Part shown: piece by piece, positions 701 to 3,640 of the stretch | How the letters are laid out: each line of letters opens with the position of its first letter | How positions within the stretch are numbered: the stretch's first letter is position 1 | DNA from: Clostridia bacterium | Lineage (GTDB): Bacteria > Bacillota > Clostridia > Oscillospirales > CAG-272 | Length of the DNA stretch: 11,760 nucleotides | Direction: 5' to 3' | Assembly (NCBI GenBank): GCA_017456685.1 | Contig: JAFTIV010000097.1 | Span: 1 to 11,760 of the forward strand | Program-made: the position numbers and the translations under genes | The notes under the pieces: generated by a model | What the model was told of the DNA's origin: nothing | Databases searched by the model: none | Seen by the model: the letters and a program-made list of their open reading frames with translations, nothing else

Positions 701-738
701 AAAGGAAGCAGAGAAATAGCGTGGTATCCTTAGCGGAG
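701..738 (+). repeat. Left terminal inverted repeat of the hairpin element
   Basis: It consists of AAAGGAAGCAGA (701-712), a 6-bp stretch, then GCGTGGTATCCTTAGCGGAG (719-738). Its partner is the inverted copy at 1055-1088. Confidence 0.7.
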
Positions 739-815
739 AATTTTACACTCAAAGTGCGAGCATCGCATTTGACTAGTCAAACGCAAATGGGCTAAGCCCA
801 AACCCATATTACAAG

Positions 816-863
816 CAGAAAGAGAGAACAGACGGTTCATAGCCGAAGGTTCTCTCTTTTCTG
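816..863. repeat. Long hairpin inside the element
   Basis: CAGAAAGAGAGAAC (816-829) pairs with GTTCTCTCTTTTCTG (849-863), giving 14 bp with one bulged T. A small inner stem CGG/CCG (833-835 with 843-845) forms in the loop. It sits just left of the GTGATATT array. Confidence 0.65.
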
Positions 864-873
864 TTGGTATAAA

Positions 874-1044
874 GTGATATTCTTTGCTGACGCAAAGAGT
901 GATATTGTCGCACAGCGACAGTGATATTGAAGCCTTACGGCTTCAGTGATATTCTATTCGCCCAAAAACTCGCGAAGCGAATACCACTCGGCGTAAGCCG
1001 AATATCACTGCGAAGCAATATCAATCGCCGTAGGCGAATAGAAC
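874..1044. repeat. Two head-to-head arrays of GTGATATT linkers and small hairpins
   Basis: On the plus strand GTGATATT occurs at 874-881, 899-906, 921-928 and 946-953. The copies are separated by hairpins of unrelated sequence: CTTTGC-TGAC-GCAAAG (882-897), GTCGC-ACA-GCGAC (907-919) and GAAGCC-TTAC-GGCTTC (929-944), each followed by A. From 980 onward the linker is inverted: AATACCAC (980-987), AATATCAC (1001-1008), AATATCAA (1017-1024) and the degenerate AATAGAAC (1037-1044). Its hairpins are CGC-GAA-GCG (971-979), TCGGC-GTAA-GCCGA (988-1001), TGC-GAA-GCA (1009-1017) and TCGCC-GTA-GGCGA (1025-1037). The linker is conserved while stems change by compensating base pairs, which indicates selection for structure, or copying of a hairpin-linker unit. 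Confidence 0.85.
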
Positions 1045-1088
1045 TGGCGTGATACTCCGTTAAGAGTATCACGCCATCTGCTTCCTTT
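1045..1088 (-). repeat. Right terminal inverted repeat with 13-bp hairpin
   Basis: TGGCGTGATACTC (1045-1057) pairs perfectly with GAGTATCACGCCA (1064-1076) around the loop CGTTAA. The outer TCTGCTTCCTTT (1077-1088) is the inverted copy of 701-712. The end of the repeat is 8 bp from the stop codon of the 847-residue lipoprotein, so this stem may also terminate that gene. No U tract follows on the minus strand, so it would be an atypical terminator. Confidence 0.7.
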
Positions 1089-1096
1089 GTGTTTAA

Positions 1097-3640
1097 TTAG
1101 TCAACCATAACGATTGTCATAGACTCGCTTACATCGATTGTAACAGTTCCGTTTGAAACGGTAATGTTGTTGATTACACCATCGGTGTCGTTGTCAGCAA
1201 AGTTAATTGTCTTAGCAGTTGAACCGCTTACGCTGAACTGGAAGTCATCAACGGTTGTGCCGTCCATTGTTGGGCACCAAGCTGTGTAAGCTGTCTTGCC
1301 CTCAGCATTCTTGAACTCGTAGAGCCATACATTCTCGTTGCCTGTAGCGATTTCTCTTGTGAAGGTGTAGTCGCTGAGGTGTGTTTTGAGAGTGTAGAGG
1401 TAGTAGTAAGCATCCTTTGCTTGACCCTTTCCATCGAAGACACCACATGTACCATACTTACCAACAGAGATTCTGTCATCTCCAACATCCTCGCACATGT
1501 ACATAGTAGCCTTATCAAGACCACAGCTTGCAAAGAGGATATAAGCACGAGCGAGCCAGTCACCTTGAATTTGGTGAACTCTTGCGAACTTGTCGTCCTC
1601 GTCAAGGTCGCCGTCGTTATCCAAGTCAGTTACATTATATGCGTGGCAGGAGGTCATTGTCTCGTAGCTTTGGTTAGTATCCCAACCAAACTCTGTGAGC
1701 CATACCTCTTTTTCTGGGAAGTACTTATTTCTGTACTCAATCATAAGTGAAAGAGCATCAACAACGCCGAAGAACTCTGGGCATACGCCAACAGTTACAT
1801 CTATGCTGTTCATATAGAATGTGTAGCCGAAGTAGGTGTGGAAGTTGAACGCATCCATAGCGATGTCGCCATCGGTACGGTTAGCCTTCATCCAATATAC
1901 CATAGTCATCATATACTTAGACTGAAGACCAGCAAGACCAGCAACAGCAACCTTCATGTTAGGGTCACCGTTCTTAGCGCCGAGGTGGTAGCCGGTGTTT
2001 TCAACCTGAGTTGAGGTGAGTGACATTTGGTGTCCGTCGTATGAGGCTGATTGAAGAGCAGCGAGCTGATAAGGAACATAACCGAGTGAGTCCTCACCGT
2101 TAGGCTCGTTACCGAACTCAAGCCATTTAAGGGTACCTTGACCGCACTCAATTGTAGCAGCTGCGGAGTGAGCCTTCAAGGTTTGGAGTGTGCTTGCTGA
2201 GGTGTTAGAGCCATAGCGAGCAGCGAACCAGTACATATTATCTGCATAGATGAAGTAAACCTCAGGGTTGAACTTTTCCCAGTAGCTTGCAGCAACGAGC
2301 TTTCCGCCCTCCTTAACTGGAAGACCAGATTCGTCAACCTTATTAGCAACATTCATCTCGCCCCATTGAACACAAGGAATGGTAAGAATGTTTTGTGAAT
2401 ATTTTTTGTAGGTGATATCCCAGCTTCCGCCTGTAGAAGCCATTGAGGAAGCGTAAATGTTAGCCTTTCCTGGGTAAGCGGCAGGATTGTATGACCAGCC
2501 CATATTGTGGTACTCACGAAGAACATTTACACACGCGAGCTGATCTACAGAGGTGTTACCGCCACCAGTAGCAGCAAATCCGCACATACCGAGAATTTCG
2601 CCAACGGTTGGGAGCTTGTGAAGGGTTGTAGCAATCTTATCACCCTCGCCCTTTTGGTAGCCGTAAAGGTGAATTTCGTTAGGAGCATAGCCGTCCTTGA
2701 ATACAACCTGAATGTATCTTGTCATTTCACCGAGCTCAACCTCTGTCCAAGCAGAAGGATTGAGGTCGTCCTTAGTAAGAGTTACACAGCCCTCCCACTT
2801 GTCGTCCTCTGCCATAAAGTCAACAGGGGTCTTTGACCATCTTACCTTGATGGTGCCGTAGTCCGCTGCAATGTCCTTGAAGAATAGGTTAACAGATGAG
2901 ATATAGTGCATATACTCAAGGTCGATAATAGGTGAAATGTTCATTCCAGCCTTTCCTTGCTCACTGTTTGAAGCGTTATTCTTTGTATCTGTAGGGTCTC
3001 CAAAGATTGCGCCAAGGTTTGTAGTTGGGAATATAAGTGAGCTTGCAAGATGCTGCTCATCAAACAAGGCAAGAAGGCTATTGTTTGTCTCACCGTGGTA
3101 AACTGCGTTCATTCTTGTCTCGTAGTCGATGTAAACCTGCTTGTTACCGCCAACACGAGCAACCTCCATACCAGAGGCTGTCTTAACAGCAACCCAGTAA
3201 GCCTTTGAGATGCTTGGTGAAATTCCCTTTACAACAAGGGTCTTTTCAACATCACCTGAAAGGGTGAAGTCAGCCTTTGTAGCCTTTGAAAAGTTCTTAT
3301 CTGTGATTTCCTTCTCGCTCCATCTAATGTCGAAATCGCTTGCCTGTGACTCAGCATACACATTGAACTTAAGTGTAGCAGAATCCTTGCCGAAATCGAT
3401 TACGCGAATGTAACGAGGGAGAACTGAACCGCCAAGAACGGCATCTCCACTTTGATCGCCACCGGAGCTTGATTCGTCACCGCCAGAGCTTGATGAATCG
3501 TTGCCACCAGAGATTGAGCCTGGATCGTCGCCAGATGAGCTTGATTGTTTTTCCCCGCCACCCTTACAAGAAGCTAAGCCAAGTGTAAGGCAAAGAATAA
3601 GCATTATGGCAAGAATTGAAAGTAAAATCTTCTTTTTCAT
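1097..3640 (-). CDS. Surface lipoprotein, multidomain glycoside hydrolase (GH clan A-like)
   Basis: The 847-residue protein starts with a type II signal peptide whose lipobox is LASC (Cys25), so it should be lipid-anchored outside the membrane. A Ser/Gly/Asp-rich linker covers residues 26-70. A fibronectin-III-like beta domain covers about 74-155, and a galactose-binding-like (discoidin-type) beta domain about 170-330. The catalytic region (about 340-700) has the two hallmarks of clan GH-A TIM barrels: the acid/base strand WLEFGNEPN (Glu512) and the nucleophile strand EVWLTEFGWD (Glu650). The NEPN form occurs in families such as GH5 and GH39, but the exact family cannot be set by eye. A beta-rich C-terminal domain follows. 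An Asp-rich loop DLDNDGDLDEDD (about 672-683) fits a calcium-binding loop and is absent from the convergent paralogue. The start is supported by GGAGG (3647-3651) six bases upstream and by a consensus promoter. The role in polysaccharide breakdown is inferred; the substrate is unknown. Confidence 0.85.
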   Translation of the reverse strand: MKKKILLSILAIMLILCLTLGLASCKGGGEKQSSSSGDDPGSISGGNDSSSSGGDESSSGGDQSGDAVLGGSVLPRYIRVIDFGKDSATLKFNVYAESQASDFDIRWSEKEITDKNFSKATKADFTLSGDVEKTLVVKGISPSISKAYWVAVKTASGMEVARVGGNKQVYIDYETRMNAVYHGETNNSLLALFDEQHLASSLIFPTTNLGAIFGDPTDTKNNASNSEQGKAGMNISPIIDLEYMHYISSVNLFFKDIAADYGTIKVRWSKTPVDFMAEDDKWEGCVTLTKDDLNPSAWTEVELGEMTRYIQVVFKDGYAPNEIHLYGYQKGEGDKIATTLHKLPTVGEILGMCGFAATGGGNTSVDQLACVNVLREYHNMGWSYNPAAYPGKANIYASSMASTGGSWDITYKKYSQNILTIPCVQWGEMNVANKVDESGLPVKEGGKLVAASYWEKFNPEVYFIYADNMYWFAARYGSNTSASTLQTLKAHSAAATIECGQGTLKWLEFGNEPNGEDSLGYVPYQLAALQSASYDGHQMSLTSTQVENTGYHLGAKNGDPNMKVAVAGLAGLQSKYMMTMVYWMKANRTDGDIAMDAFNFHTYFGYTFYMNSIDVTVGVCPEFFGVVDALSLMIEYRNKYFPEKEVWLTEFGWDTNQSYETMTSCHAYNVTDLDNDGDLDEDDKFARVHQIQGDWLARAYILFASCGLDKATMYMCEDVGDDRISVGKYGTCGVFDGKGQAKDAYYYLYTLKTHLSDYTFTREIATGNENVWLYEFKNAEGKTAYTAWCPTMDGTTVDDFQFSVSGSTAKTINFADNDTDGVINNITVSNGTVTIDVSESMTIVMVD

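Follow-up and report, generated by a model that had tools for sequence, protein, structure and literature searches.

What is a gene-free stretch of 388 bp, packed with hairpins and closed by a perfect inverted pair, doing between two convergent genes? The locus occupies positions 701-1088 of an 11,760-nucleotide stretch of a Clostridia bacterium genome (GCA_017456685.1, contig JAFTIV010000097.1), the whole of which is called the window here. A first-pass annotation of the DNA had proposed an undescribed non-autonomous mobile element or repeat family with 12-bp terminal inverted repeats, grown from a single hairpin-linker unit. Much of the anatomy that it described was indeed found. The genes on either side converge on it and are paralogues (37% identity, E 6e-43) that both lack a Pfam match, and no ORF of at least 60 amino acids in the ORF list overlaps 701-1088. 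The interior is as rich in hairpins as had been stated, with fold z-scores of -10.85 and -10.93 on the two strands (0/100 shuffles for each), and in the predicted fold of 701-1088 the 12-bp pair closes the entire structure. The second, inward inverted match is also present and is the weaker one (701-741 against 1052-1088, 76%), and the echo of the linker was seen as repeats of AGTGATATT, with its reverse complement in the second half. The features of the locus are as follows.

3-599, + strand: 3' part of the left convergent gene, a paralogue of the right gene (ORF list, protein comparison)
610-655, + strand: hairpin with arms 610-628 and 637-655, likely the left gene's own terminator (inverted-repeat search)
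692-703, - strand: T-run of the right gene's terminator, an A-run on the + strand (sequence)
701-712, no strand: left arm of the host terminator stem, previously annotated as the left terminal inverted repeat; copy-specific elsewhere (flank-arm comparison)
713-1076, no strand: inserted element with approximate ends, conserved core 721-1074 (copy alignment, empty site, flank arms)
721-810, no strand: module A, left-end module of the constant chassis, GTGGTATCCTTAGCGGAG...GCATCGCATTTG...GGGCTAAGCCCAAACCC; with a core similar to a candidate oriT
816-863, no strand: hairpin B (CAGAAAGAGAGAAC / GTTCTCTCTTTTCTG), constant chassis
872-1044, no strand: hairpin ladder, with linkers AGTGATATT at 873, 898, 920 and 945, and complements at 1001 and, imperfect, at 980
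952-962 / 1033-1043: inner stem of the ladder
872-1044, - strand: ladder, with homology on this strand to an S23 gene leader from contig C136 of the same genome
872-957, + strand: sub-threshold match to Rfam Gut-1 RNA RF01706, 42.8 bits (gathering 50)
976-1046, - strand: sub-threshold match to Rfam Gut-1 RNA RF01706, 46.0 bits (gathering 50)
1045-1076, no strand: hairpin D, right-end module of the constant chassis, TGGCGTGATACTC CGTTAA GAGTATCACGCCA
1077-1088, no strand: right arm of the host terminator stem, previously annotated as the right terminal inverted repeat
1097-3640, - strand: right convergent gene, whose terminator contains the element (ORF list, protein comparison)

The proposal of a dispersed, non-autonomous repeat family was upheld, since many copies were found in the same genome and in related Clostridia, together with the empty sites described below. 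The genome itself gave 20 matches at E≤1e-5, including the window and counting one contig twice; the assembly (1.43 Mb, 63.7% complete, 208 contigs) undercounts the copies because many contigs end inside one. Matches were present in 37 of 57 related genomes (this one included), belonging to 12 of 29 genera, and several genomes reached ten or more. In a collection of named genomes, the pattern of the left-module core retrieved at least 111 stretches; among the 111 matches listed, 107 had the left end of the chassis and four did not (L325, L339, L352, L362). The carriers among the titles listed are mostly metagenome-assembled genomes named Clostridia bacterium or Oscillospiraceae bacterium, and many of the listed ones came from goat, sheep, deer or yak gut. 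Some copies are recent: contigs C30 and C28 of G018, which differ in their flanks, share 139 nt at 100% identity, and in the genome under study C107 and C56 agree at 98.6% over 279 nt. Plasmid records gave no match to the element.

The expectation that copies would share their ends fared less well, as copies were found but their outermost termini differ. For this comparison, 150 distinct left ends were collected, of which 45 reached contig ends and 6 lacked a right end that could be recognised, leaving 99 complete copies with 45-nt flanks (40 from our numbered set of genomes, G, and 59 from named records). The inner ends A and D are common to the copies and imperfectly inverted, and the outer 12-bp pair is specific to each copy. 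The stems that the flanks could form were scored with G+C weighting against a control of 2970 mismatched flank pairs; a score that gave A-T pairs full weight was abandoned, as A- and T-runs match from one copy to another. A score of at least 6 was reached by 80/99 complete copies versus 2.5% of the mismatched pairs, a score of at least 7 by 66/99 versus 0.4%, and a score of at least 4 by 93/99 versus 39.8%; the six copies below 4, with a weak stem or none, were L140, L141, L286, L357, L359 and L370. An A-run adjoined the left arm in 74 copies, a T-run the right arm in 77, and both were present in 62. Considering that the complementary arms are copy-specific and accompanied by these runs, the outer pair is therefore a different intrinsic terminator at each site. 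This ruled out the 12-bp arms as true terminal inverted repeats: the perfect pair 701-712 / 1077-1088 does exist, but its arms, which vary between copies and pair within their own copy only, are part of the host terminator and not the ends of the element. In the window, the element at 713-1076 sits in the loop of the intrinsic terminator of the right-hand gene, with 701-712 and 1077-1088 as the stem.

Empty sites, for which the earlier proposal had also called, were found at the 3' end of uvrA, where two relatives have the stem without the element (G001, GGAACGG-TAAT-CCGTTCC; G004, GGAACGG-ATTTT-CCGTTCC; loops of 4-5 nt), and a third, G009 (L199), has the same GGAACGG/CCGTTCC arms, with the loop occupied by an element of about 350 nt. 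Target duplications, likewise anticipated, were not visible by eye at this one clean site; the loop was replaced, and the stem was single-copy. The site was then surveyed by eye over 30 loci of the genus, of which three had no recognisable end and one was a repeat; among the remaining 26, 20 had a plain terminator within 90 nt, three had none visible, two had other ladders and one had the element. The two other ladders (L200 of G011 and L216 of G002, with ATGAATTG and GTCAGTGG, respectively) lie directly 3' of the stop codon, at the position where relatives have the plain uvrA terminator. At the site of contig C98 of the genome under study, the flanks adjoin in G015 over a plain terminator with a different stem sequence, and in G012 a plain terminator lies 3' of the left gene, with other genes before the right one. 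The latter arrangement was also seen in G007 and G015 at the site of C190.

Within the terminator loop, the 99 complete copies consist of a constant chassis (A, B and D) that carries one of eight types of hairpin ladder, each named by its linker word. The types are GTGAAGTT (29 copies), GTGATATT (18, including the window), GTTATGA (11), ATGAAATC (10), CGATATA (10), ATGAATTG (9), TGATGTT (8) and GCGATAT (2), with two copies untyped. In 97/99 copies, a single word reached a count of three or more over both strands, and the runner-up word averaged 0 to 0.5 per copy, except for GCGATAT, which overlaps CGATATA by definition. Every type has both the word and its reverse complement (means of at least 1.5 on the lesser strand), as would be required by a pairing of the two ladder arms. 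Growth from one hairpin-linker unit, as first suggested, is partly right, in that the ladder is indeed a series of linkers and hairpins, but it does not hold for the whole element, in which ladder types are swapped on a constant chassis. Among copies of the window's type (18), variation is concentrated in the hairpin stems, and the linkers are near-invariant. A few variants of the chassis were recorded. The loop of hairpin D has its usual orientation in 81 of the 99 copies, is otherwise in 15, and is inverted, as if flipped (CTTAACG versus CGTTAAG), in three (L040, L313, L356). At 403-960 of L132 (G024:C128), the ladder and half of D are replaced, and a foreign antisense ORF of about 86 amino acids lies there. 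A second class of chassis has GTGATATT ladders with other end modules, including hairpins such as GGCGCACCTGC..GCAGGTGCGCC (L029, L030, L034, L035 and L036, which are contigs C39, C199, C163, C184 and C76 of the same genome). In the window itself, the hairpin 3' of the left gene (606-658) resembles the hairpin B variant of other copies (88-90% over about 50 nt).

The ladders led to a protein family. Genes of the S23 family (PF05635) were matched in 25 of the 27 genomes of the genus, and 80 of the 99 element ladders matched the leaders of such genes at E≤1e-6, all 80 in one orientation, in which the minus strand of the element corresponds to the plus strand of the leader. The GTGATATT ladders, the window's type, matched in 18/18 cases, all to the leader of the S23 gene on C136, a gene cut by the contig start. 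For the other types, the matches were 29/29 for GTGAAGTT, 9/9 for ATGAATTG, 9/11 for GTTATGA, 8/8 for TGATGTT but to leaders labelled GTGAAGTT, 4/10 for CGATATA with two of these to a GCGATAT leader, and 2/2 for GCGATAT to a GTGAAATA leader; one of the two untyped copies matched, and none of the ten ATGAAATC ladders did at this threshold. Seven of the eight types thus have at least some copies that match S23 leaders. Read on the minus strand, the order is D, ladder, B and A in the element and, in the S23 loci that were read, host hairpin, ladder and S23 ORF, so that A/B stands where the S23 ORF would be. Overall, we regard the insertion in terminator loops and the homology of the ladders to S23 leaders as very well supported.

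The S23 loci were sampled as 72 ORF entries, in which L068 and L268 appear twice and a few come from other genera. Among the 63 entries with enough sequence on both sides, a 7-mer counted at least four times over both strands was found in 54 in the 420 nt upstream of the gene versus 10 downstream. With a word list that was fixed after the leaders had been seen, a type could be assigned to 43 of 68 leaders, leaving 25 untyped. On a tree of 39 typed S23 proteins, the linker word changed 14 times, which is the minimum for 15 words; when the words were shuffled on the tree, the mean was 30 changes, and 0/200 shuffles were as low as 14. It is to be noted that linkage of gene and leader alone could explain this result. 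The pairing of element and S23 types within the same genome was weak: an element and its own S23 type occurred together in 5 of the 16 genomes that had both kinds of data, and there were 6 type matches versus 2.9 by permutation (p 0.03), with element loci unevenly sampled. Individual genomes differed, as G025 (93% complete) has GTGATATT elements and one S23 match, which is of the AATGAAG type, G016 (53% complete) has element matches and no S23 match, and G015 (97% complete) has five element matches and three S23 matches.

Several minor features of the S23 loci were also recorded. A tRNA lies within 700 nt upstream in 31 of 65 entries, and several ladders start directly 3' of a tRNA terminator. 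By eye, the S23 ladder adjoins an inverted copy of the 3' end of the upstream gene, so that the junction is a fold-back hairpin, in L084, L086, L229, L237, L245 and L247 (gene end like SHVE..VCL), in L087 (guaA-like end) and in L094 (another gene). A search of viral contigs for the S23 protein gave no confirmed match, and phage records gave two partial matches to the element, one of which has the order tRNA, terminator, ladder and S23 gene. This order, with a GTGATATT ladder of the same subtype, is seen in L380 (MT835815.1 3071-7174), filed as a phage from human faeces, the DNA of which is probably bacterial.

Taken together, the best explanation, to which we assign a probability of roughly 0.55, is a non-autonomous mobile element of terminator loops that carries an exchangeable ladder resembling S23 leaders and has S23 as its partner in trans. 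The element should be tolerated where it lies, since a landing in the loop would leave the stem and the T-run whole, and the host would keep a working terminator. At tandem sites, the host gene reads from A to D in 19 copies and from D to A in 11. A strand-locked RNA mechanism is disfavoured, because it would give one orientation, and reverse splicing into a transcript was accordingly set aside as a candidate. As both orientations to the host gene occur, the element would rather move as DNA, its targets being hairpins that are exposed where DNA is single-stranded or cruciform. The S23 protein would bind the repeated 7-9-nt linkers and act as the trans-acting partner. To our knowledge, no catalytic activity of S23 is known, and movement by S23 is a tentative proposal that we hold at less than even odds, suggested by the association of ladders, leaders, tree and typing. 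The likeness of the ladders to S23 leaders nonetheless offers a possible role for a poorly understood protein family.

The first alternative is that the element is an ordinary miniature inverted-repeat transposable element (MITE), moved by a DNA transposase with a preference for palindromes or terminators, the S23-like ladder being passenger cargo. Its small size and lack of ORFs, the imperfectly inverted ends (701-741 against 1052-1088, and those of A and D), and the swapping of ladder types on one chassis would all suit such an element, yet the uvrA site has no visible target duplication, and neither a long copy nor, among the five families searched, a common transposase was found. When the right end was looked for within 600 nt, the cores of the 99 complete copies measured 296-527 nt, and a stricter closing rule that allowed 3.5 kb gave 70 copies of 297-506 nt; a long autonomous A-to-D copy was thus not seen, and every complete copy is too short for a transposase. 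It is to be noted that this search excludes the 45 left ends at contig ends and the 6 without a recognised right end. Y1 transposases were matched in 12 of the 27 genomes of the genus and in none of G010, G015, G018 and G025, all of which are at least 93% complete and have element matches. Among 12 genomes searched, reverse transcriptase was matched in 1, DDE_Tnp_1 in 3, and IS110 and rve in 5 each, of which 4 in either case exceeded the cut-off. Relaxase (PF03432) was matched in 2 of 15 genomes of the genus, which did not include G015, G018 or G025, and G015 had no match to any of the six families. Each of the six was therefore rejected as the common mobiliser, being without a match in many element-bearing genomes, and we consider a conventional MITE unlikely.

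Slightly less likely again is that module A is an origin of transfer, at which a relaxase would nick in trans, the single-stranded DNA then being joined into a hairpin loop of the recipient strand. This possibility arose from Flavonifractor sp. An100 (L325 2590-2665), in which a gene for a NikA/MobC-like protein, itself followed by a gene for a MobA/VirD2-like relaxase (genes in L325 934-2587), is preceded at a distance of 53 nt by the module A core, with GCATCGCATTTG.CTAG.CAAACGC ahead of a GC hairpin and AAACCC. The pattern match in L325 is an oriT-like stretch and not a copy, so that Flavonifractor was rejected as an element carrier; this made the S23 and MITE readings slightly less likely and added the relaxase as a rival. 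Judged by sequence resemblance, module A may be, or derive from, an oriT, in which case the element would be a substrate for single-strand nicking, and the oriT-like core makes a relaxase a candidate mobiliser instead of S23. Single-stranded DNA would, moreover, present hairpin loops. Against this, a single locus of this kind was found, with a similar stretch in L362 (2592-2660); the L325 stretch came from a pattern built on A itself and had no match in plasmid records; and in the two genomes of the genus with PF03432, the motif is beside neither relaxase match.

It is improbable that insertion is unselective and that copies are lost outside terminator loops, where they would interfere with genes or termination. 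The loop position does keep the stem and T-run, and 48 of the 99 copies lie between convergent genes (4 are divergent and 17 unclassed by a simple ORF rule), but intergenic sites free of terminators should then be tolerated as well, and yet the flank arms score at least 4 in 93 copies and at least 6 in 80. Still less probable is a structured RNA that is not mobile and is useful to the host at transcript 3' ends, as a stabiliser, an insulator or an S23-responsive regulator. The fold is strong on both strands, and RNAalifold on the 18 copies of the window's type predicted 81 pairs, 12 of which were changed on both sides in at least one sequence, with a small covariation term (-0.53); however, the empty orthologous sites, the near-identical copies at different flanks and the two orientations to the host gene all speak against it. 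Lastly, a REPIN moved by RAYT or a derivative of a group II intron is barely credible, for although the element is hairpin-rich and intergenic, and the L047 copy lies 3' of what by eye is a RAYT-like gene, Y1 and reverse transcriptase are as scarce as given above (without a match in G010, G015, G018 and G025, and matched in 1 of 12 genomes, respectively), and the insertion is in the loop and not behind the terminator.

The terminator-loop element with S23 as putative partner was then compared with known systems. That the family is undescribed holds insofar as no Rfam model matched the window over its gathering score, but the ladder is kin to Gut-1. Gut-1 (RF01706) exceeded its gathering score (50) in 5 of 20 kin loci (L028, L147, L067, L029 and L017). 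Gut-1 was described as a noncoding RNA that is not cis-regulatory, with human-gut sequence as its only known source (Weinberg et al. 2010, PMC2864571); its three hairpins and GUGAAAU-like linkers resemble the ladder of the window, which it matches on both strands below threshold. Here, in contrast, it matches one arm of a larger ladder, located in an insertion element or an S23 leader. Intervening sequences of 23S rRNA with an S23p ORF, as described for Coxiella (PMC4990558), are likewise inserted, in association with S23, into an RNA hairpin and closed by a stem of inverted repeats; the S23 ORF there has repeated heptamers upstream, and that paper gives no known function for S23/IVP proteins. 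They differ in that the target of the present element is a transcription terminator between two protein genes instead of a 23S rRNA helix, that the element reaches ten or more matches in several genomes, and that it has no S23 gene, its ladder resembling the leader of such a gene elsewhere.

REPIN-RAYT systems (PMC3116915) share repeated hairpins beside a protein gene, a protein lineage that fits the repeat type, and dispersal in trans; in contrast, the partner here is a four-helix-bundle protein that is not known as a transposase, many carriers have no Y1/RAYT match, and the target is a terminator loop. Bacterial MITEs, according to a review (PMC10969869), are likewise short, non-coding and intergenic with imperfect inverted ends, but the present element has no visible target duplication, no parent transposase was found for it among the families searched, and its outer arms are host sequence. 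As for group IIC introns, the window had no match over the gathering score to an Rfam intron ribozyme. As far as the searches reach, a terminator-loop-targeted element of this kind is new in its target and its partner, and none of the open-access titles and abstract beginnings searched connects either S23 or Gut-1 to insertion in terminators or to repeated heptamers. The orphan Rfam motif Gut-1 thus gains a setting within an insertion element, which is also a naturally occurring example of insertion aimed at the loops of terminators and connects S23/IVP proteins with repeat words that track the S23 phylogeny.

The association of S23 with words of about seven bases extends beyond the genus. S23 was matched in 26 plasmid records, and 20 of these were fetched (L390-L409, from other phyla), several being close relatives and not independent cases. 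Their S23 genes are flanked, mostly on both sides, by tandem heptamers, and those upstream include ATTAGTG x15 in Bernardetia, CAATTCG x4 in Nostoc and AATTTGG x6 in Dolichospermum. Among lags of 4 to 12, the strongest was 7 in 19/20 upstream and 19/20 downstream stretches of 260 nt versus 2/20 S23 ORFs, and an identity of at least 0.7 at lag 7 was reached in 16/20 upstream stretches, 17/20 downstream stretches, no ORFs and 0.1% of 1000 shuffles. In the S23 leaders of the genus, lag 7 was best in 18/68 and strong in 9, since hairpins separate the words there. Heptamer repeats of Beggiatoaceae, cyanobacteria and Bacteroidetes (PMC4679880) have the same 7-nt period and often stand just upstream of start codons; the terms 'S23' and 'helix bundle' do not occur in the main text of that paper. 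The cyanobacterial STRR are comparable heptamer direct repeats.

It is conceivable, and we offer it as a speculation, that S23/IVP proteins and repeats of about seven bases form a new and widespread class of mobile or ribonucleoprotein system, with words specific to each lineage and elements placed in hairpin loops. If so, the words would adjoin the gene as tandem heptamers in cyanobacteria, Bacteroidota, Spirochaetota and Chloroflexota, and form hairpin ladders in Clostridia; the loops targeted would be terminators here and rRNA helices in the classical intervening sequences; and a common explanation would cover the intervening sequences of 23S rRNA, Gut-1 RNA and some, at least, of the heptamer repeats. 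In five of the plasmid loci (L404, L407, L409, L405 and L406), the S23 genes lie beside genes for helicase, DUF1156, Swt1-HEPN or DNA methylase, and beside cas1, surroundings that resemble defence clusters.
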